DNA of 42,652 nt from an uncultured Pelagibacteraceae bacterium (GTDB taxonomy: Bacteria; Pseudomonadota; Alphaproteobacteria; Pelagibacterales; Pelagibacteraceae): positions 1 to 42,652 of the forward strand of contig CAJXBA010000010.1 of NCBI GenBank assembly GCA_913050185.1, given 5' to 3'. The notes beneath the pieces were generated by a model. The model did not search any database. It saw nothing but the letters and a program-made list of their open reading frames with translations, and had not been told where the DNA came from. The position numbers and the translations under genes were made by a program. Each line of letters opens with the position of its first letter. Position 1 is the first letter of the stretch. Below, piece after piece: positions 5,276 to 42,609 of the stretch.

Positions 5276-6685
5276 TTACTTTCTTTCTCTTAGTTTATCT
5301 CTTTTCCATATACCTGAATCGACTCCTCCATCTGTATATGTTGTGGTTCCTTTTCCGTGTCTTTTAGAATTGAACCATTCGCCAATATATATATCTCCAT
5401 TGACATAATTCATGGTTCCTTGCCCGAACATTTTATCATTCCTCCATCCTCCTTCGTATTTAACGTATTGAGGATGTCCTTTCTTAAATTTCATAGTACC
5501 TTGCCCATCTCTTTTATTTTCTATCCATTCTCCAGCGTACATTCCACCATCATCATATCTAAAGGTTGCCTGTCCATTTTTTTCAATCAATTTATTTTCT
5601 TCCCAAATACCTTCTTGAACAATTCCATCAGAAGTAATGAAGGTTCCCTGTCCATTGCGTTGACCTTTGGTATAGAGTCCTGAATATTTACTTCCATTTT
5701 TATATTCGATATCTACTTGTCCATTCGGTCTACCTTCTATCCAATCTCCGGTGGTTTCTCTTCCATCAGTAAATGTAAAAGTTCCTTTTCCATGATAAGC
5801 GCCCTTTTGGAACTCACCAACATATTTGCTGCCATTAGGATGTGTTTCTACCCCTTTTCCGTTCTTTAGATCATTTTTGAATTCTCCAACATATTTTTCT
5901 CCACTCTGGAATGTATAAGTCCCTCTTCCGTTAGACTTGCCGCCGCTAAATTCTCCTGCATATACCGATCCATCGCTATAAGTGTAAATTCCATATCCCG
6001 AAAATTTTCCACGTACAAACTCACCTTCATATTGTTCGTCCTTATAATAAACAACACCCTCACAATCATTCCATTTAAACATCATCAAACCTACAGAAAA
6101 TTTATTTTTTGCCTCACGCGGACTTCCCTCACACTCTGGTAGAGAACTTTCTGTTCTAATTGATTCTTCTTTTTTAACTACTTGAGCTTCGTCTTTTTCA
6201 GACTCTTTCTTGGGCGCCGTGGCCCCTTCTTCAAGTCGTTCGATTAACTCACCCTTTTCCCAGATACCATAATCAAATCCTCCACCGTAAAATGTATATT
6301 TTCCTAATCCTGAAAATTTTCCACGTACAAATTCACCAGCATATATATCGCCATTACCATATTTCATAGTTCCATAACCATCAGATCTACCTTCAAAGAA
6401 ACTACCTTCATATAATGTCCCATCATTATATGTGTAGGTTCCTTGCCCTGAAAATTTTCCTTTTTCAAATTCACCAACATATTGGGAGCCATTTTTTTTA
6501 ACTAAAGTACCAAGGCAACTTCCCCATTTCATTAACTTAACCTTTGCTGCAGTATTCCCCCCCATGACTGAAAATTTCTTAATTATAAGAGGGCTTCCCT
6601 CACACTCGGGTAGTGAACTTTGCGCTAGTGCTGTATTACAACAGAACACTAAAACCAGAAATAAGTACATTAAAAGTTTTTTCAT
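5276..6685 (-). CDS. Secreted MORN-repeat protein
   Basis: The 469-residue protein begins with a clear signal peptide, MKKLLMYLFLVLVFCCNTAL then AQ, so it is exported. The mature part is almost entirely MORN repeats of about 23 residues with the pattern Y-x-G-E-F-x-x-G-x-x-x-G-x-G-T. I count roughly fifteen including degenerate copies. The layout is duplicated: SSLPECEGSP stands at the mature N-terminus and again near residue 180, each followed by its own MORN block; the first block has about four repeats and the second about eleven. A charged linker rich in Lys and Glu separates the halves. MORN repeats form elongated beta sheets that bind lipids or proteins; the function here is unknown. 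The gene is less AT-rich than its surroundings and starts 17 bases beyond the tRNA-Gly 3' end, which suggests acquisition. Confidence 0.88.
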   Translation of the reverse strand: MKKLLMYLFLVLVFCCNTALAQSSLPECEGSPLIIKKFSVMGGNTAAKVKLMKWGSCLGTLVKKNGSQYVGEFEKGKFSGQGTYTYNDGTLYEGSFFEGRSDGYGTMKYGNGDIYAGEFVRGKFSGLGKYTFYGGGFDYGIWEKGELIERLEEGATAPKKESEKDEAQVVKKEESIRTESSLPECEGSPREAKNKFSVGLMMFKWNDCEGVVYYKDEQYEGEFVRGKFSGYGIYTYSDGSVYAGEFSGGKSNGRGTYTFQSGEKYVGEFKNDLKNGKGVETHPNGSKYVGEFQKGAYHGKGTFTFTDGRETTGDWIEGRPNGQVDIEYKNGSKYSGLYTKGQRNGQGTFITSDGIVQEGIWEENKLIEKNGQATFRYDDGGMYAGEWIENKRDGQGTMKFKKGHPQYVKYEGGWRNDKMFGQGTMNYVNGDIYIGEWFNSKRHGKGTTTYTDGGVDSGIWKRDKLRERK

Positions 6686-18520: not shown

Positions 18521-19104
18521 TTTAGTGTACTTAAATATTCCTTTATTTGTTTAACCGGCAAACCCATAATAGCGTCTTCATCTCCTTCGATTTTTGAAAA
18601 CAAAGATCTTCCATCCGCCTCAATTTGATAAACGCCGTAAGCATATAATTCTTTATCCTTTATCTTTACCAAATATGATTTAATTTCATCCGAATTAAGT
18701 TGTTTCATTGTTAAAGCAGACACGTCTGTATAATTCCAAATCATTGCTCCATTTTTAGATATACAAACAGAGCTGATTAATTGGTGTTTTTTACCATTTA
18801 ATTTTTCAAGAATAGCTAAAGCTTCGCCTCTATTTGTAGGTTTTGAAATAAGTTCTTCATTTAAATCTATAACACTATCCGCTCCTAAAACCAGATGGTT
18901 ATGTCTTTTTTTACTTACTTCGTTTGCTTTTAATTCTGCAAGATTTTTAGAAATTATCTCTGGAGAAGCTTTTTCTTTAAGCAACGAATCTTTAATCGAC
19001 TCTTCATCAATATTGGCTGGCATTACCTCACATCCGATGCCATTTTGGTCTAATATCTTTTTTCTCACCCCGCTTCTTGATGCAAGAATAATATTATTAA
19101 TCAT
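18517..19104 (-). CDS. maf: Maf-family nucleotide pyrophosphatase
   Basis: Maf proteins hydrolyse non-canonical or methylated nucleoside triphosphates and can affect septation. Signatures are ILASRSGVRKKIL at the N-terminus, LVLGADSVID with the catalytic Asp, ISKPTNRGEALAILEKLNGK, and YAYGVYQIEADGRSLFSKIEG, where the family usually has GxAGxYxIQG. The substitution of the usual second G-A-G with AYGVYQ is typical of the alphaproteobacterial YceF-type branch. The length is 195 residues. It sits between ppsR and aroE with four-base overlaps on both sides. Confidence 0.93.
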   Translation of the reverse strand: MINNIILASRSGVRKKILDQNGIGCEVMPANIDEESIKDSLLKEKASPEIISKNLAELKANEVSKKRHNHLVLGADSVIDLNEELISKPTNRGEALAILEKLNGKKHQLISSVCISKNGAMIWNYTDVSALTMKQLNSDEIKSYLVKIKDKELYAYGVYQIEADGRSLFSKIEGDEDAIMGLPVKQIKEYLSTLK

Positions 19105-19922
19105 TTAGAATTTAATATATCTAATATTTTTATAATAGACGCGGCTGTTTCTTCAACTGACTTTCTTGTTACGTCTATAATTGGCCAGTTATTCTTTTTA
19201 AATATTTTTTTTGAATTTTCTATCTCATTTAAGATTTCTAATTCATTAGTATAATTTACTTGTCTATCTTCGTGCATAGATTGAGTTCTGTTTCTTCTCA
19301 CATCCAATAATCTATTCACATCACAGATAAGACCTACAATAAAAATTTTATTGGGGTTTTCTATAAGTTCCTTTGGTAAATTTTTATTTGGAATAATTGG
19401 TATATTTGTAACTTTATAACCTCTATTGGCTAGATAAATTGAGGTTGGGGTTTTGCTGGTTCTGCTTATACCAACTAAAACAACATCTGATTTATCAAGA
19501 TCTGATATTATTTTTCCATCATCATGGGACATAGTAAATTGAATTGCTTCTATCCTATTATAATAATCTTTACCTAAAATATGCTGTCCACTGGGTTTGT
19601 GGCTTGCTTCTTGTTTAAGTAATTTTGCAAAGTTAGTAATTAAATTACCCAAAACCTCAAAACAAGGAATATTATTTTTTCTACATTTGGTGATTAAATA
19701 TTTAGCAAGCGATCCATCAACTATAGTATATAAAATTATAACATTTTGTTCAGAGTTGCATTTAGTAATAATCTTGTTTATTTGATTTTCTGTTCTAGTA
19801 AAAGAATAATGAATAGTTTTACACTTAAAATTAGAAAATTGTGCTTTGATAGCTAAAAAAATTCTATCTAGCGTCTCCCCAGTTGAATCTGAAACTTGAT
19901 AAACTTGATAGATCTTGTTCAT
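19101..19922 (-). CDS. ppsR: PpsR-type kinase/pyrophosphorylase (DUF299)
   Basis: Members regulate PEP synthase or pyruvate phosphate dikinase by ADP-dependent phosphorylation and phosphate-dependent dephosphorylation. Landmarks are QVSDSTGETLDRIF at the N-terminus, YTIVDGSLAKYL, SHKPSGQHILGKDYYNRIEAI, the P-loop VLVGISRTSKTPTSIYLANRG, and the basic stretch RLLDVRRNRTQ. The length of 273 residues is normal. It is the first gene left of the candidate replication origin, as in many alphaproteobacteria, where this family flanks oriC opposite hemE. Given the pyruvate kinase relic in this window, control of pyruvate/PEP flux through a dikinase may matter here, but that is inference. Confidence 0.95.
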   Translation of the reverse strand: MNKIYQVYQVSDSTGETLDRIFLAIKAQFSNFKCKTIHYSFTRTENQINKIITKCNSEQNVIILYTIVDGSLAKYLITKCRKNNIPCFEVLGNLITNFAKLLKQEASHKPSGQHILGKDYYNRIEAIQFTMSHDDGKIISDLDKSDVVLVGISRTSKTPTSIYLANRGYKVTNIPIIPNKNLPKELIENPNKIFIVGLICDVNRLLDVRRNRTQSMHEDRQVNYTNELEILNEIENSKKIFKKNNWPIIDVTRKSVEETAASIIKILDILNSK

Positions 19923-19927
19923 AAAAG

Positions 19928-19936
19928 TGTTAATAA
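19928..19936 (-). promoter_or_regulatory. DnaA-box-like 9-mer 1
   Basis: TGTTAATAA on the plus strand is the reverse complement of TTATTAACA, which differs from the DnaA box TTATNCACA at one fixed position. It lies just ahead of the ppsR start codon and overlaps a TTAA-N7-TTAA motif (19930-19944) of the CtrA type. Confidence 0.45.
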
Positions 19937-20023
19937 ATATTTAATTAAAAACAAATATACATAAATATTTTCTATTCAATAAATAACTAAACAAACTTAA
20001 CAGTTCGCCAACATGTTTATCTA

Positions 20024-20032
20024 TGTTAATAA
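20024..20032 (-). promoter_or_regulatory. DnaA-box-like 9-mer 2
   Basis: A second exact copy of TGTTAATAA, in the same orientation as the first and near the middle of the ppsR-hemE gap. A weaker half-match, TGTTTATCT, lies ten bases to the left. Confidence 0.45.
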
Positions 20033-20151
20033 AATATAAACAAATTATTAAATTAATTAACAAAAAATAACATATATAATAAAATCAATAATTTATAACA
20101 TATTTTAATAACAGATTTAGATGATAGGCTGTATACAATTATTTAATCACA

Positions 20152-20160
20152 TTATTAACA
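20152..20160 (+). promoter_or_regulatory. DnaA-box-like 9-mer 3
   Basis: TTATTAACA is the same 9-mer in the opposite orientation. It directly precedes the CTA/ATA triplet run, the relative placement expected for a box that loads DnaA onto DnaA-trio repeats. Confidence 0.5.
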
Positions 20161-20164
20161 TACA

Positions 20165-20182
20165 CTAATACTACTAATACTT
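20165..20182 (+). repeat. DnaA-trio-like triplets / 9-bp tandem repeat
   Basis: The bases read CTA ATA CTA CTA ATA CTT, starting four bases after DnaA box 3. They also form a tandem 9-bp repeat ACTAATACT (20164-20172 and 20173-20181). The triplets resemble the origin-unwinding DnaA-trio motif of Bacillus subtilis (3'-GAT-5' type on the complementary strand). They are followed by a T/A-only tract up to hemE. Confidence 0.45.
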
Positions 20183-20198
20183 ACTTTATATAATATAT

Positions 20199-21209
20199 AT
20201 GGAAAACCATCTGTTAAATTGCATAACTCAAAAAAAAACGAATTATGTTCCAATTTGGTTTATGAGGCAAGCTGGTAGATACTTACCAGAATTTAGAGAA
20301 ATAAGAAAAAAAAATCCTAATTTCATAAAATTATGTTTAAATTCTAATCTGATTAACAAAATAACACTTCAACCAATAAAAAGATTTGGCCTTGATGGAG
20401 TTATAATTTTTTCAGATATTTTGATGATACCTTATGGATTGGGTCAAAAAATTGAGTTTAAAAAAGGATACGGTCCAATTCTAGGAGATATTAATCTTAA
20501 TAATATTATAAATATAGACCCAATAAATTTTATTCAAAGATTACAACCTATTTATAAAGGAATAAAAAAAGTTAAAAATAATTTAAAAGAAAAAAGTCTT
20601 ATAGGGTTCGTTGGGGCACCCTGGACTTTGTTGCTTTATATGTTGAATAAAGGATCTCCAAAAAATAATTTTGATTTTAGTAAAATTAATGAAGATAAAT
20701 ATGTAATTCGTAAACTATTAAAAAAGATAGAGGAAATTATATGTCTGCACGCTGATAAACAAATTGAAGCAGGAGCAGACTTAATTCAAATTTTTGATTC
20801 TTGGGCAGGACTATTACCTAAAAAAGAACTTTCAAATTATTGCTATACTCCAACTTTAAAAATTGTACAACATATTAAATCTAAAAAAATACCAGCAATT
20901 TGTTTTCCAAAGGGAATTCGTAAAAATTATGTAGATTTTTGTTCGATAGTTAAACCCGATTGTATTAGCATAGATCACGAAATTGATCCAAAGTGGATAA
21001 AGGAGAAATTAAATGGAACCCCAATACAAGGGGGGCTAAATCCCAAAATATTATTAGAAGACAGTGAAAAAATTAAAAAAAATACCGAAAACTACCTAAA
21101 TATATTTAAAGATTACCCTTATATATTTAATTTAGGACATGGGGTTTTACCGGGAACGAAACCAGAAACAATAGAGTATGTTGTCCAAATTATTAGAAAT
21201 AAAAAATGA
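20199..21209 (+). CDS. hemE: Uroporphyrinogen decarboxylase
   Basis: HemE converts uroporphyrinogen III to coproporphyrinogen III in heme synthesis. Signatures are VPIWFMRQAGRYLPEFREIR at residues 18-37 (active-site Arg pair), GVIIFSDILMIPYGLG (catalytic Asp), GFVGAPWTLLLYML, IQIFDSWAGLL, and FNLGHGVLPGTKPE near the C-terminus. The 336-residue length is normal. It is the first gene right of the candidate origin, as in Caulobacter. It overlaps hemH by four bases. Confidence 0.97.
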   Translation: MENHLLNCITQKKTNYVPIWFMRQAGRYLPEFREIRKKNPNFIKLCLNSNLINKITLQPIKRFGLDGVIIFSDILMIPYGLGQKIEFKKGYGPILGDINLNNIINIDPINFIQRLQPIYKGIKKVKNNLKEKSLIGFVGAPWTLLLYMLNKGSPKNNFDFSKINEDKYVIRKLLKKIEEIICLHADKQIEAGADLIQIFDSWAGLLPKKELSNYCYTPTLKIVQHIKSKKIPAICFPKGIRKNYVDFCSIVKPDCISIDHEIDPKWIKEKLNGTPIQGGLNPKILLEDSEKIKKNTENYLNIFKDYPYIFNLGHGVLPGTKPETIEYVVQIIRNKK

Positions 21210-25990: not shown

Positions 25991-27685
25991 ATGAAAAAAA
26001 AGTTGACAATTCAAGAAGTTTTTACTTTGGCTCTTCGAAATCATAAAAATAACAATTTTAAAACTGCCGCTAATCTTTATATGGAAGTATTAAAAACAAA
26101 ACCCAACCACATAGATGCTGTAAATAAGCTCACTGCTTTATTAGGTAACACTAAAATAGATTTATTAATGCAAATTGATAGAGGCACTGCAAAAAGATTA
26201 TTATTATTTTTATTTCGGAGAAATGATATCGACCATAAGGATATTTTTTTAATTACAAGATTTTTATTACTCAAAGAAGAAAATCATAGCTATGATCAAA
26301 TAAAAAAAATAGTTATATCGGATTCTTTATTACTAGAGAATCAAATTATCAAAAACTTAATAGACGAAGAACTTTTCCAATTAATGCTTCAAAAATCACT
26401 AATTACAGACTTTTTCTTGGAGAAAATTTTAATCAAAATAAGATATGAAATACTTTTTGCATTGGTTAACAAAAATCAAAAAATTTTATCAAATTATTTT
26501 AATTTTATCATTTCTCTTGCAGAACAATGTTTCCTTAACGAATATATTTATTTTCAACAACCAAAAGAAATTGATTACATACTTCAATTAAAAAATTTAA
26601 TAATAAATAAAGAAAAAATAAATGAAATGGAAATAATCGTTTTAAGCTGTTATGTTCCACTATATTCTTTGAAAAATATTATAAGCAAATTATCAAATTA
26701 TAAATCTGAAAATGTTTTATTTAATAATTTGATCAATATGCAAATTAAGGAGCCATTAAAAGAAAAGAAATTAGTAAATTCAATTAAATCACTTGGAGAA
26801 ATTTCTGATGCTGTATCTAAGAAAGTAAGAGATCAATATGAAAAACATCCCTATCCAAGATGGAGATATTTTTATAGCAATACACCGGCTAATTTTTTAA
26901 CCATTATAAATGCTTTAGTAAGGCCAAACAAAATCGAAATTAATAACAAATTTGACAACCCCAATGTTCTCATTGCTGGTTGTGGAACAGGAAAACAGAT
27001 CCTTGTAGCTAATAATTATTTAAATGCGAACATACTTGCGGTTGATTTAAGTTTAACAAGTCTTGCTTATGCCAAAAGAAAAATAGAAGAATTAAATTTA
27101 AAAAATATAGAATTTTTACATGCGGATATTTTACAATTAAAGAATTTAAACAAAAAATTTGATATTATAGAATGTGCTGGAGTCCTACATCATATGCGCG
27201 ATCCTTTGGAAGGATTAAAAGCATTATTGGAGTTGTTGGACCCTCACGGCTTATTGCGACTAGGCTTATACAGCGAATTAGCAAGACAAGATATAATTGA
27301 AGTAAGAGAATTTATAAAAAAAAAAAAATATATGAATACAATTAATGATATCAGAAAATGTAGAAAGGCAATAATTGAAAATAAAGAAAATAGATTACTC
27401 AAAAAAGTACTTTATAGAAAAGATTTTTACTCAACATCAGCAGCAAGAGACCTGATGTTTCATATTCAAGAACATCGATTTACATTAAAACAAATTTCCA
27501 AAATATCAAAAAATTTTAATTTAGAATTTTTAGGTTTTGTTGGTCAATCATTAAAAAATAAATTTTCCATAATTTTCCCAAATGACAAAAATAATGCTTC
27601 TCTAGATAATTGGAATCAATTTGAAAAAAAAAATCCAGATGCTTTTATTGGAATGTATGATTTTTTAGTAAGGAAGATAAAATGA
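25991..27685 (+). CDS. TPR-containing SAM-dependent methyltransferase
   Basis: The first about 60 residues hold a TPR-like helical pair (FTLALRNHKNNNFKTAANLY, MEVLKTKPNHIDAVNKLTAL). A helical middle of about 200 residues follows, without recognisable motifs. From about residue 280 comes VRDQYEKHPYPRWRY and then a class I methyltransferase domain: NVLIAGCGTGKQILVANNY (motif I), ILAVDLSLTSLAYAKRK (acidic end of beta 2), IEFLHADIL, and FDIIECAGVLHHMRDP. The Q-Y-E-x-x-P-Y-P-R-W segment ahead of the domain is characteristic of a family of TPR-methyltransferases frequent in marine alphaproteobacteria. The substrate is unknown; an RNA, protein or lipid target cannot be told apart. It lies upstream of mnmE with a 41-base gap. 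Confidence 0.85.
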   Translation: MKKKLTIQEVFTLALRNHKNNNFKTAANLYMEVLKTKPNHIDAVNKLTALLGNTKIDLLMQIDRGTAKRLLLFLFRRNDIDHKDIFLITRFLLLKEENHSYDQIKKIVISDSLLLENQIIKNLIDEELFQLMLQKSLITDFFLEKILIKIRYEILFALVNKNQKILSNYFNFIISLAEQCFLNEYIYFQQPKEIDYILQLKNLIINKEKINEMEIIVLSCYVPLYSLKNIISKLSNYKSENVLFNNLINMQIKEPLKEKKLVNSIKSLGEISDAVSKKVRDQYEKHPYPRWRYFYSNTPANFLTIINALVRPNKIEINNKFDNPNVLIAGCGTGKQILVANNYLNANILAVDLSLTSLAYAKRKIEELNLKNIEFLHADILQLKNLNKKFDIIECAGVLHHMRDPLEGLKALLELLDPHGLLRLGLYSELARQDIIEVREFIKKKKYMNTINDIRKCRKAIIENKENRLLKKVLYRKDFYSTSAARDLMFHIQEHRFTLKQISKISKNFNLEFLGFVGQSLKNKFSIIFPNDKNNASLDNWNQFEKKNPDAFIGMYDFLVRKIK

Positions 27686-30980: not shown

Positions 30981-31616
30981 ATGGATAAATCTATCCAGAT
31001 AGATACTTTTAGTAGATATACTCGTGTTTCACGTGAAACAATCATAAGTTTAAAAAAATATGAAAGTTTACTATTAAAAGCTCATAAAAAGCTGAATCTA
31101 ATTGGAAATTCAACAATTGAGCAATTATGGATAAGGCATTTCCTAGATAGCTCGCAAGTCATTGATTATATTGATAAAAATGATAAAAGCTTGATAGATA
31201 TAGGTTCTGGAGCAGGTTTTCCAGGATTAGTATTGTCTATAATCTCCAGAGATAGAAAAATTGCTCTGAAAACAAAATTAATTGAAAAAAGTTCTAAGAA
31301 AGTAAATTTTTTAAACGATGTAATTAACAAACTTCATTTAAATGTTGATGTGGTCCATAAAAATATTATGGAAGAACCATATTATTTTTCTGGAGATGTA
31401 ATTGTAGTCAGAGCTTTTAAACCCTTAAAGGTGACACTGCAACTTATTCACAATAAAGCTCGAAATTGGAAAAAAATTTTCATTTTTCTAGGGAAAACAG
31501 GAAAACATGAATTACTTCAAGCTTCTAAAATTTGGGATATTGAGTATAAGCAAAGGGCAAGTGCTACGAGTAGTGATTCGAGTGTTATAGAAATTAATAA
31601 ACTTAAAAAAAAATAA
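30981..31616 (+). CDS. rsmG: 16S rRNA (guanine527-N7)-methyltransferase RsmG
   Basis: RsmG methylates G527 of 16S rRNA. The SAM-binding motif is LIDIGSGAGFPGLVLSI, preceded by LWIRHFLDSSQVI and followed by LIEKSSKKVNFLNDVI. Near the N-terminus the residues RVSRETI are encoded by the parS palindrome, so this part of the protein is constrained by the DNA site. The 211-residue length is normal. It sits directly after mnmG, and parA begins one base after its stop. Confidence 0.96.
   Translation: MDKSIQIDTFSRYTRVSRETIISLKKYESLLLKAHKKLNLIGNSTIEQLWIRHFLDSSQVIDYIDKNDKSLIDIGSGAGFPGLVLSIISRDRKIALKTKLIEKSSKKVNFLNDVINKLHLNVDVVHKNIMEEPYYFSGDVIVVRAFKPLKVTLQLIHNKARNWKKIFIFLGKTGKHELLQASKIWDIEYKQRASATSSDSSVIEINKLKKK
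31025..31040. promoter_or_regulatory. parS centromere site
   Basis: TGTTTCACGTGAAACA is a perfect 16-bp palindrome identical to the canonical parS consensus bound by ParB. It lies in codons 15-20 of rsmG, about 0.6 kb before parA and about 11 kb from the candidate oriC. I found no second perfect copy in the window. Confidence 0.96.
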
Positions 31617-31617
31617 A

Positions 31618-32415
31618 TTGAAAAATAGTCAAATTATTTCGGTAATTAATCAGAAAGGCGGAGTGGGGAAAACTACCACTGTGATAAATTTAGCAACAGC
31701 CATTTCGTTTCTTAATAAAAAAGTTTTAGTTATTGATTTAGATCCACAGGGTAATGCCACTACAGGTTTTGGTTTAACCAGTGCCGGTGAAAAGACAGTC
31801 TACGATGTGTTAAATGGCAACTGTAATTTTGAAGATGCTATCAAAGATACAAAAATAGATAATCTCAAAATAGTTCCATCAAATGTAGATTTGTCAGGAT
31901 TAGAAGTAGAGACTGCTAATGAAAACAGAAGAGCTTTTTTGTTAAAAGATAAGATTGAAAATTTTGTGAATAGTGAAAAAAATAATTTTTCCTATATCTT
32001 TATAGATTGCCCACCTTCACTAAGCCTTTTAACGGTCATGGCTTTGGTGGTTGCCAAATCATTAATCGTTCCTCTACAGGCAGAATTTTTTGCACTCGAA
32101 GGATTAAGCCAACTAGTTAAAACTATAGATAGAATAAAAATTAAATTAAATCCTGAAATCGATATTAGAGGGGTTCTTTTAACTATGTTTGATAAGAGAA
32201 ATAAACTTTCTTCTGAAGTAGATGCGGAAGCCAGAAAATTTTTTAAAAATAAAGTTTATCAAACAGTTATACCAAGAAACGTAAGGCTCTCCGAAGCCCC
32301 TTCTCATGGTATTCCAGTGTTAATTTATGATAAATCATGCTCAGGAAGCAGATCTTATTTAAATTTTGCTGATGAATTTTTACGACAAGAAAATGTAATG
32401 GAAAGTGCAGCATAA
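31618..32415 (+). CDS. parA: Chromosome-partitioning ATPase ParA
   Basis: ParA forms a nucleoid-bound ATP gradient that moves the ParB-parS complex. The deviant Walker A box is VINQKGGVGKTTTVINLA, followed by VLVIDLDPQGNATTGFG (A' box with the Asp), YIFIDCPPSLSLLTVMAL, and VIPRNVRLSEAPSHG, a signature of chromosomal ParA. The length of 265 residues is normal. The start codon is TTG at 31618, one base after the rsmG stop; an ATG is not available before the ATP-binding site. The stop overlaps the parB ATG as TAATG. Confidence 0.97.
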   Translation: MKNSQIISVINQKGGVGKTTTVINLATAISFLNKKVLVIDLDPQGNATTGFGLTSAGEKTVYDVLNGNCNFEDAIKDTKIDNLKIVPSNVDLSGLEVETANENRRAFLLKDKIENFVNSEKNNFSYIFIDCPPSLSLLTVMALVVAKSLIVPLQAEFFALEGLSQLVKTIDRIKIKLNPEIDIRGVLLTMFDKRNKLSSEVDAEARKFFKNKVYQTVIPRNVRLSEAPSHGIPVLIYDKSCSGSRSYLNFADEFLRQENVMESAA

Positions 32416-33263
32416 TGATTGATTCTAGATTAAAAAAAGGTTTAGGAAGAGGACTGTCATCTTTGTTAGGAGACTCATCAAATAAAATTGAAACAAATAA
32501 GGTTTCAATAAACGATCTTTCAAGAAACAAATTTCAACCCAGAAAACATTTTAGCGAAGAAGGTTTGGAAGAATTATCTAATTCCATTAAAGAACAAGGA
32601 ATTATACAACCAATCGTCGTTAGGCCAGATAAATCCAAAAAAGGACAATATGAAATCATAGCTGGCGAAAGAAGATGGTTAGCTGCTCAAAAAGCAGGAC
32701 TTCACGAAGTACCAGTTGTTGTCTTAAGCGTTGATGATATAAAATCTCTTGAATTTTCCATTATTGAAAATGTTCAAAGACAAGACTTAAACCCAATAGA
32801 GGAAGCTCGTGGTTATCAAAGATTGATAGACGATTTCAATTACGACCATGATAAATTGTCTAAGTTTATTGGCAAAAGTAGAAGCTATATAGTAAATTCG
32901 ACAAGACTACTATCTCTTCCAGATGAGATTCTGTCGATGGTTGAACAAAATAATTTGTCAGCCGGACACGCTAGAACATTAATAGGTTTGCAGAATTCCA
33001 TTCATATTGCAAAAAAAATAATTCGAAAAAAGCTTTCCGTGAGACAAGCAGAAGTTTTGACAAAACAATATAAAAACAAAAAATTTACATTAATTCATAA
33101 AAAAGACGCTAACATTCTAGATTTACAAAGATTATTAGAAGAAAAAACAGGACTATCTGTATCTATTAATAATAAAAAAAGCAACTCAGGAACAATTACC
33201 TTTGCGTATCAAGATCTTGATCAATTGGAGAAAATTACCGACACAATTAAGAATAACTATTAG
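32415..33263 (+). CDS. parB: Chromosome-partitioning protein ParB
   Basis: ParB is a CTP-dependent clamp loaded at parS. The N-terminus LKKGLGRGLSSLLGD carries the ParA-activating basic segment. The CTPase region has NKFQPRKHF, ELSNSIKEQGIIQPIVVRP, IIAGERRWLAAQKAGL, and ENVQRQDLNPIEEARGYQRL. The helix-turn-helix is KLSKFIGKSRSYIVNSTRLL. The C-terminal dimerisation segment follows. The length is 282 residues. Its end overlaps the convergent holA by 17 bases. Confidence 0.97.
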   Translation: MIDSRLKKGLGRGLSSLLGDSSNKIETNKVSINDLSRNKFQPRKHFSEEGLEELSNSIKEQGIIQPIVVRPDKSKKGQYEIIAGERRWLAAQKAGLHEVPVVVLSVDDIKSLEFSIIENVQRQDLNPIEEARGYQRLIDDFNYDHDKLSKFIGKSRSYIVNSTRLLSLPDEILSMVEQNNLSAGHARTLIGLQNSIHIAKKIIRKKLSVRQAEVLTKQYKNKKFTLIHKKDANILDLQRLLEEKTGLSVSINNKKSNSGTITFAYQDLDQLEKITDTIKNNY

Positions 33264-41970: not shown

Positions 41971-42609
41971 ATGGATAATTTAACTATATCAATTTTAGGA
42001 AATCAAATATTTTCGGAAATTATAAGTGAACTTAAGTTATTTTCTAGATTTAAAATTAAATTCTACGAAGATTTGGATTCATACGTAAAAGATATCACAC
42101 AATCCGAACAATTAATCATTTTCTTCTTAACAAGTGCAAATCAAAAGGATTATGAAAAAGTGGGTAGATATAATTTTCCTTTAATTATTATTTCCAAGCT
42201 TCCAATAACACAAAACAAATTACCGCATGAATTTGTAGAGCAATCAGCCATACCTTTTAGCATACTAGATTTGGAAAAAAAAATTATTTCACTTTTAGCA
42301 AGATATAAATTTAAAAAGAGTTCCTTAATTCATTTATGTGGTTATACATTAAATAAAAATGAAAAAAAAATTGAAAAAAATAATTTAAAACTTCAACTTA
42401 CAGAAAAAGAAATTGATTGTCTTATTTTGTTTAGCCAAATTGATAAACCTCTAAGTAGAAGTTTTATCTTAAATAATATTTGGAAATATTCTCCAGAAAG
42501 CGATACACATACTGTTGAAACACATATTTATAGACTTCGAAAAAAAATATTAGAGAAATTTGATGACAATAATTTTATCAAGAATAACAATAAAGGGTAT
42601 TACATCTGA
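41971..42609 (+). CDS. Winged-helix regulator of OmpR type with degenerate receiver
   Basis: The C-terminal part is a clear OmpR/PhoB winged helix: LQLTEKEIDCLILFSQIDKP, LSRSFILNNIWKYSPESDTH, TVETHIYRLRKKI and KNNNKGYYI (recognition helix and wing). The N-terminal about 100 residues have receiver-like length and alternating strands, but the strand that should end with the phosphoacceptor Asp reads IIFFLTS, and the acidic pair after strand 1 is missing. It is therefore unlikely to be phosphorylated. No histidine kinase is adjacent. It may regulate the neighbouring envelope genes, but that is only suggested by position. Confidence 0.85.
   Translation: MDNLTISILGNQIFSEIISELKLFSRFKIKFYEDLDSYVKDITQSEQLIIFFLTSANQKDYEKVGRYNFPLIIISKLPITQNKLPHEFVEQSAIPFSILDLEKKIISLLARYKFKKSSLIHLCGYTLNKNEKKIEKNNLKLQLTEKEIDCLILFSQIDKPLSRSFILNNIWKYSPESDTHTVETHIYRLRKKILEKFDDNNFIKNNNKGYYI

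Follow-up and report, generated by a model that had tools for sequence, protein, structure and literature searches.

The non-coding gap between ppsR and hemE raises the question of where chromosome replication starts in a Pelagibacteraceae (SAR11) bacterium. The gap lies in the window, the stretch of 42,652 nucleotides that was analyzed. In Caulobacter (Cori) and in Rickettsia, the origin sits between hemE and a COG1806 gene (PMC1914354). A literature search, with DoriC listings and the supplement of the unwinding paper outside it, found no paper describing SAR11 origins. We consider the ppsR-hemE gap to be the chromosomal oriC of this bacterium with a probability of about 0.94. The position of the gap, its conserved anatomy and the GC skew in relatives were computed and form the basis of this reading; protein binding, DNA bending, unwinding and initiation at the gap are what we infer from them. 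The features of the locus, in window coordinates, are as follows.

19101-19922, minus strand: ppsR (COG1806, DUF299), left flank of the gap, with its start at 19922
19923-20198, no strand: proposed oriC, the divergent ppsR-hemE gap, 276 bp, 85% AT
19928-19936, minus strand: DnaA box 1, TTATTAACA, separated from the ppsR start codon by 5 bp, position fixed in nearly all relatives
20024-20032, minus strand: DnaA box 2, TTATTAACA; most of the genus has YGTTARTAA at the same spot
20083-20095, plus strand: predicted IHF site AATCAATAATTTA, a full match to WATCARNNNNTTR (0.07 expected by chance), called by sequence match only
20130-20138, minus strand: weak box-like site TTGTATACA, from alignment and letters, low confidence
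20152-20160, plus strand: DnaA box 3, TTATTAACA, 3' end toward the trinucleotide repeats, in one of the best-conserved stretches when the family is aligned
20165-20182, minus strand: six DnaA-trio-like triplets, 3'-GAT TAT GAT GAT TAT GAA-5', 4 bp past box 3
20183-20198, no strand: AT-rich tract reaching the hemE start, read from the sequence, likely within the unwound region
20199-21209, plus strand: hemE, right flank of the gap
31025-31040, plus strand: parS TGTTTCACGTGAAACA, perfect, 16/16
31618-32415, plus strand: parA
32415-33263, plus strand: parB

Flanked by hemE and COG1806 (ppsR), the gap occupies the classic location for its class and very probably belongs to the hemE/COG1806-type alphaproteobacterial oriC. 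A preliminary description of the window had proposed an origin beside hemE on the strength of a divergent, very AT-rich gap of 276 bases, three identical DnaA-box-like 9-mers, and parS and parAB about 11 kb away. The coordinates of the gap proved exact, and its AT content exceeded the 58-76% of the 2-kb stretches of the window; parS and parAB are likewise where they had been placed.

The window encodes other proteins: one with eight MORN-repeat stretches (5276-6685), one of 564 aa that is encoded between rho and mnmE (25991-27685) and has a methyltransferase-like domain, and an OmpR-type DNA-binding protein (41971-42609) in which Pfam found no receiver domain. G024, G045 and G026 have similar matches at a distance of about 18-27 kb from their putative origins.

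All three TTATTAACA copies were found in the gap as described, a number reached in 0 of 20,000 dinucleotide shuffles of its sequence. Across the bacterium's own genome the 9-mer showed no overall enrichment (66 occurrences vs. 73 for the reversed control), and boxes were denser in the gap than elsewhere. The next-best cluster in that genome comprised two copies 162 bp apart on contig C1. Equal density of the 9-mer in other gaps, which had been posed as a check, was not observed, the remaining long gaps of the window holding zero or one box each. The weak site at 20130-20138 adjoins the spot where most congeners have TATGGATAA (TTATCCATA), which appears eroded in the window's gap.

The arrangement was conserved among relatives. 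Across 11 genera, the 33 gaps compared varied little in length (252-294 bp). Both genes were present in 29 of the first 30 loci, all divergent and with gaps of 257-294 bp, and four deeper genomes had gaps of 252-276 bp. A second set comprised 80 named loci, almost all of which are Pelagibacteraceae according to their titles; some came from genomes already in the first set. In 79 of them hemE was present, always divergent from ppsR and separated from it by 257-289 bp. Conserved positions within the gap were near the ppsR start, near gap position 102 and about 40 bp before hemE.

Since the bacterium's own genome comprises 87 contigs, its skew was computed within the window only, where the cumulative minimum fell at 19-21 kb, and whole-chromosome skew was taken from relatives; gene strand accounts for most of the skew in these genomes. 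In G045, a complete genome on a single contig (1,308,759 bp), skew peaked at 996 kb, and its minimum was broad, covering 307-368 kb. The equal-replichore optimum was at 336 kb and the ppsR-hemE gap at 335.5 kb. In a second complete relative, G026, one-third of which was sampled, the optimum included 1090 kb and the gap lay at 1090.1 kb. The cumulative minimum of a sister-family contig (G060:C1) also spanned the hemE gap. The skew check proposed in the preliminary description, run here in relatives, gave an optimum close to the gap or including it in both complete genomes. The G045 optimum was broad, with all positions from 307 to 344 kb within 2%, and skew might therefore merely bracket an oriC located elsewhere nearby, for example in another gap within about 30 kb. 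We regard such a location as extremely improbable: the densest 280-bp box stretch of the whole G045 genome, its best box cluster genome-wide, was its ppsR-hemE gap, and the listing for the bacterium's own genome contained no second site with three TTATTAACA copies inside 300 bp. Another G045 box cluster, at 861.8-862.1 kb, was set aside because it appears to read as coding sequence.

Rearranged genomes bear on whether the gap is an origin or a mere regulatory region shared by ppsR and hemE, with the boxes serving as a transcription-factor motif and no initiation by DnaA. Shared regulation would fit the divergent gene arrangement, the placement of the final conserved block roughly 40 bp before hemE, and the fact that DnaA boxes can also act in gene regulation. 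In genus g9 (G030, G042, G050; L134-L136), however, hemE is unlinked from ppsR, the start of the new neighbor reads as rho, and the ppsR-rho gap retains the boxes and CTAATA repeats. The skew shift in G030 was found at this gap: ppsR, at 141.3 kb, gave the maximum score of 8474, and hemE, at 718 kb, scored -6170. The skew minimum was thus at ppsR-rho (141 kb) and hemE was near the skew maximum, near the terminus; therefore, the origin signal follows the ppsR gap, not hemE. In the sister family f2, the module occupies the maf-hemE gap, adjoining hemE with a different gene on its other side. A module that persists beside either gene when its partner is replaced, and that the skew minimum follows in g9, makes a purely regulatory role very unlikely, if slightly less so than an origin elsewhere nearby. 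The proposal of an oriC beside hemE is instead supported by the skew of relatives, the conserved gap and boxes, and the persistence of the module in g9.

The window's boxes have two mismatches to TTATCCACA and depart from the strict TTATNCACA consensus because they deviate at position 6. The 33 gaps contained TTATNNACA 80 times compared to 11.6 +/- 3.3 expected, a 7-fold enrichment, and 49 of these 80 boxes had the TA form, TTATTAACA, compared to 2.1 expected (23-fold); the classical CC form accounted for one box. In the named gaps, TTATTAACA made up 100 of 183 boxes, and its dominance across the family goes beyond base composition. Judged from these counts, the AT-shifted DnaA box TTATTAACA is a lineage-specific form. 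Other forms occur in the family (TTATAAACA, TTATCAACA, TTATTCACA and TTATCTACA), and the boxes of the sister family have AC, AA, CA and CC forms. DnaA domain IV is for the most part conserved with that of Escherichia coli (1J1V), and it retains the RDHTT motif used in recognition. In DnaA of Pelagibacteraceae (L111-L119), SN, AN, TG or SG replaces the GG directly before the RDHTT helix. Altered recognition residues were considered as the source of the box form and rejected, as RDHTT is unchanged and the GG substitution does not track box form cleanly. The suggestion of a lineage-specific DnaA preference therefore stands only in part, as far as the dominance of TTATTAACA is concerned; a change in DnaA specificity is so far unsupported, given the other box forms and the conserved protein motif.

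Neither the trinucleotide module beside hemE nor the IHF site was part of the preliminary description. Read on the plus strand, box 3 is followed by CTA ATA CTA CTA ATA CTT, and a run of five [CA]TA had p=0.001 by shuffling. The box-plus-repeat pattern occurred once in the bacterium's own genome and matched in 11 of 60 genomes, directly upstream of hemE in nine. At least three consecutive [CA]TA were present in 18 of 79 named gaps, with 0.6 expected. The triplets were strong in several genera (Fisher over genus medians, p=1.2e-6), and weak or absent in g2, g4 and one g12 member. In the maf-hemE gap of the sister family, a CACAG/AACAG box is followed by CTACTACTACTA at the corresponding position. 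Published DnaA-trio criteria ask for a box with at most two mismatches, a spacer of 0-16 bp and at least three NAN triplets; here, box 3 is followed by a 4-bp spacer and six triplets. The box and triplets at 20152-20182 are likely a DnaA-trio unwinding module beside hemE; the degraded run in g2 and g4 makes this assignment less secure than that of the origin.

Of 12 gaps from the genus, 10 retain the IHF consensus, and its regular retention is confined to the genus. The genome encodes IHF-alpha-like and IHF-beta-like proteins, identified as best matches that fall below curated cut-offs. A single palindromic TTAA-N7-TTAA site for CtrA (19930-19944, about 0.2 expected) is absent in many relatives; CtrA control of the gap, which was considered, would rest on this one unconserved site. 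No CtrA was detected above the curated NCBIfam cut-off in four genomes, with a narrow model that passes in only 1 of 14 control genomes. CtrA sites are dispensable, as some Rickettsiales origins do without them (PMC1914354). The genome encodes a CcrM-sized, CcrM-type methylase, as already published for SAR11 (PMC3973325). GANTC occurred 0 times in the 33 gaps, compared to about 10.6 (mononucleotide shuffle) or 8.5 (AT-rich G045 stretches) expected, and 6 times in the 79 named gaps compared to 27 expected, counts that are not independent since the gaps are related by descent. By these counts, GANTC is avoided in the putative origin gaps despite the predicted CcrM-type methylase.

The gap resembles the origins of Caulobacter crescentus and Rickettsia (PMC1914354) in its flanking genes, AT-rich composition, several DnaA boxes and an IHF site. 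It differs in being shorter (about 276 vs. more than 400 bp), in having mostly TTATTAACA boxes rather than TTATNCACA, in the lack of a CtrA over the curated cut-off and in its avoidance of GANTC. The basal unwinding system of Bacillus subtilis, a DnaA box with DnaA-trios, is predicted in most bacteria (PMC8287927, PMC6669920). The gap shares with it a box within two mismatches and, a short distance away, three or more NAN triplets, of which the one nearest the box is 3'-GAT-5'; the triplets are on the 5'-tail strand, as in published scaffolds. In contrast to B. subtilis, GAT and TAT alternate, the run is degraded in some genera, and the module here is a sequence-based prediction.

These features suggest how initiation might proceed. 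DnaA would bind all three boxes, two toward ppsR and one toward hemE, and IHF would bend the DNA at 20083-20095, bringing the boxes together. DnaA-ATP would then extend from box 3 onto the minus-strand triplets, a step that we consider probable, with some room for doubt. The AT-rich tract beside hemE would melt and the helicase would be loaded there.

The gap may represent a stripped-down origin of Pelagibacteraceae in which DnaA sites have moved to TTATTAACA, CtrA control is absent and GANTC is avoided despite a CcrM homolog. DnaA, IHF and the triplets would then be the only control in sight, and one genus would have split the origin from hemE; we advance this view tentatively, at slightly less than even odds. 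The anatomy offers concrete sites at which to test initiation control in a bacterium seemingly without the known replication brakes of Caulobacter, and a test of whether the DnaA of SAR11 has drifted in its DNA preference.
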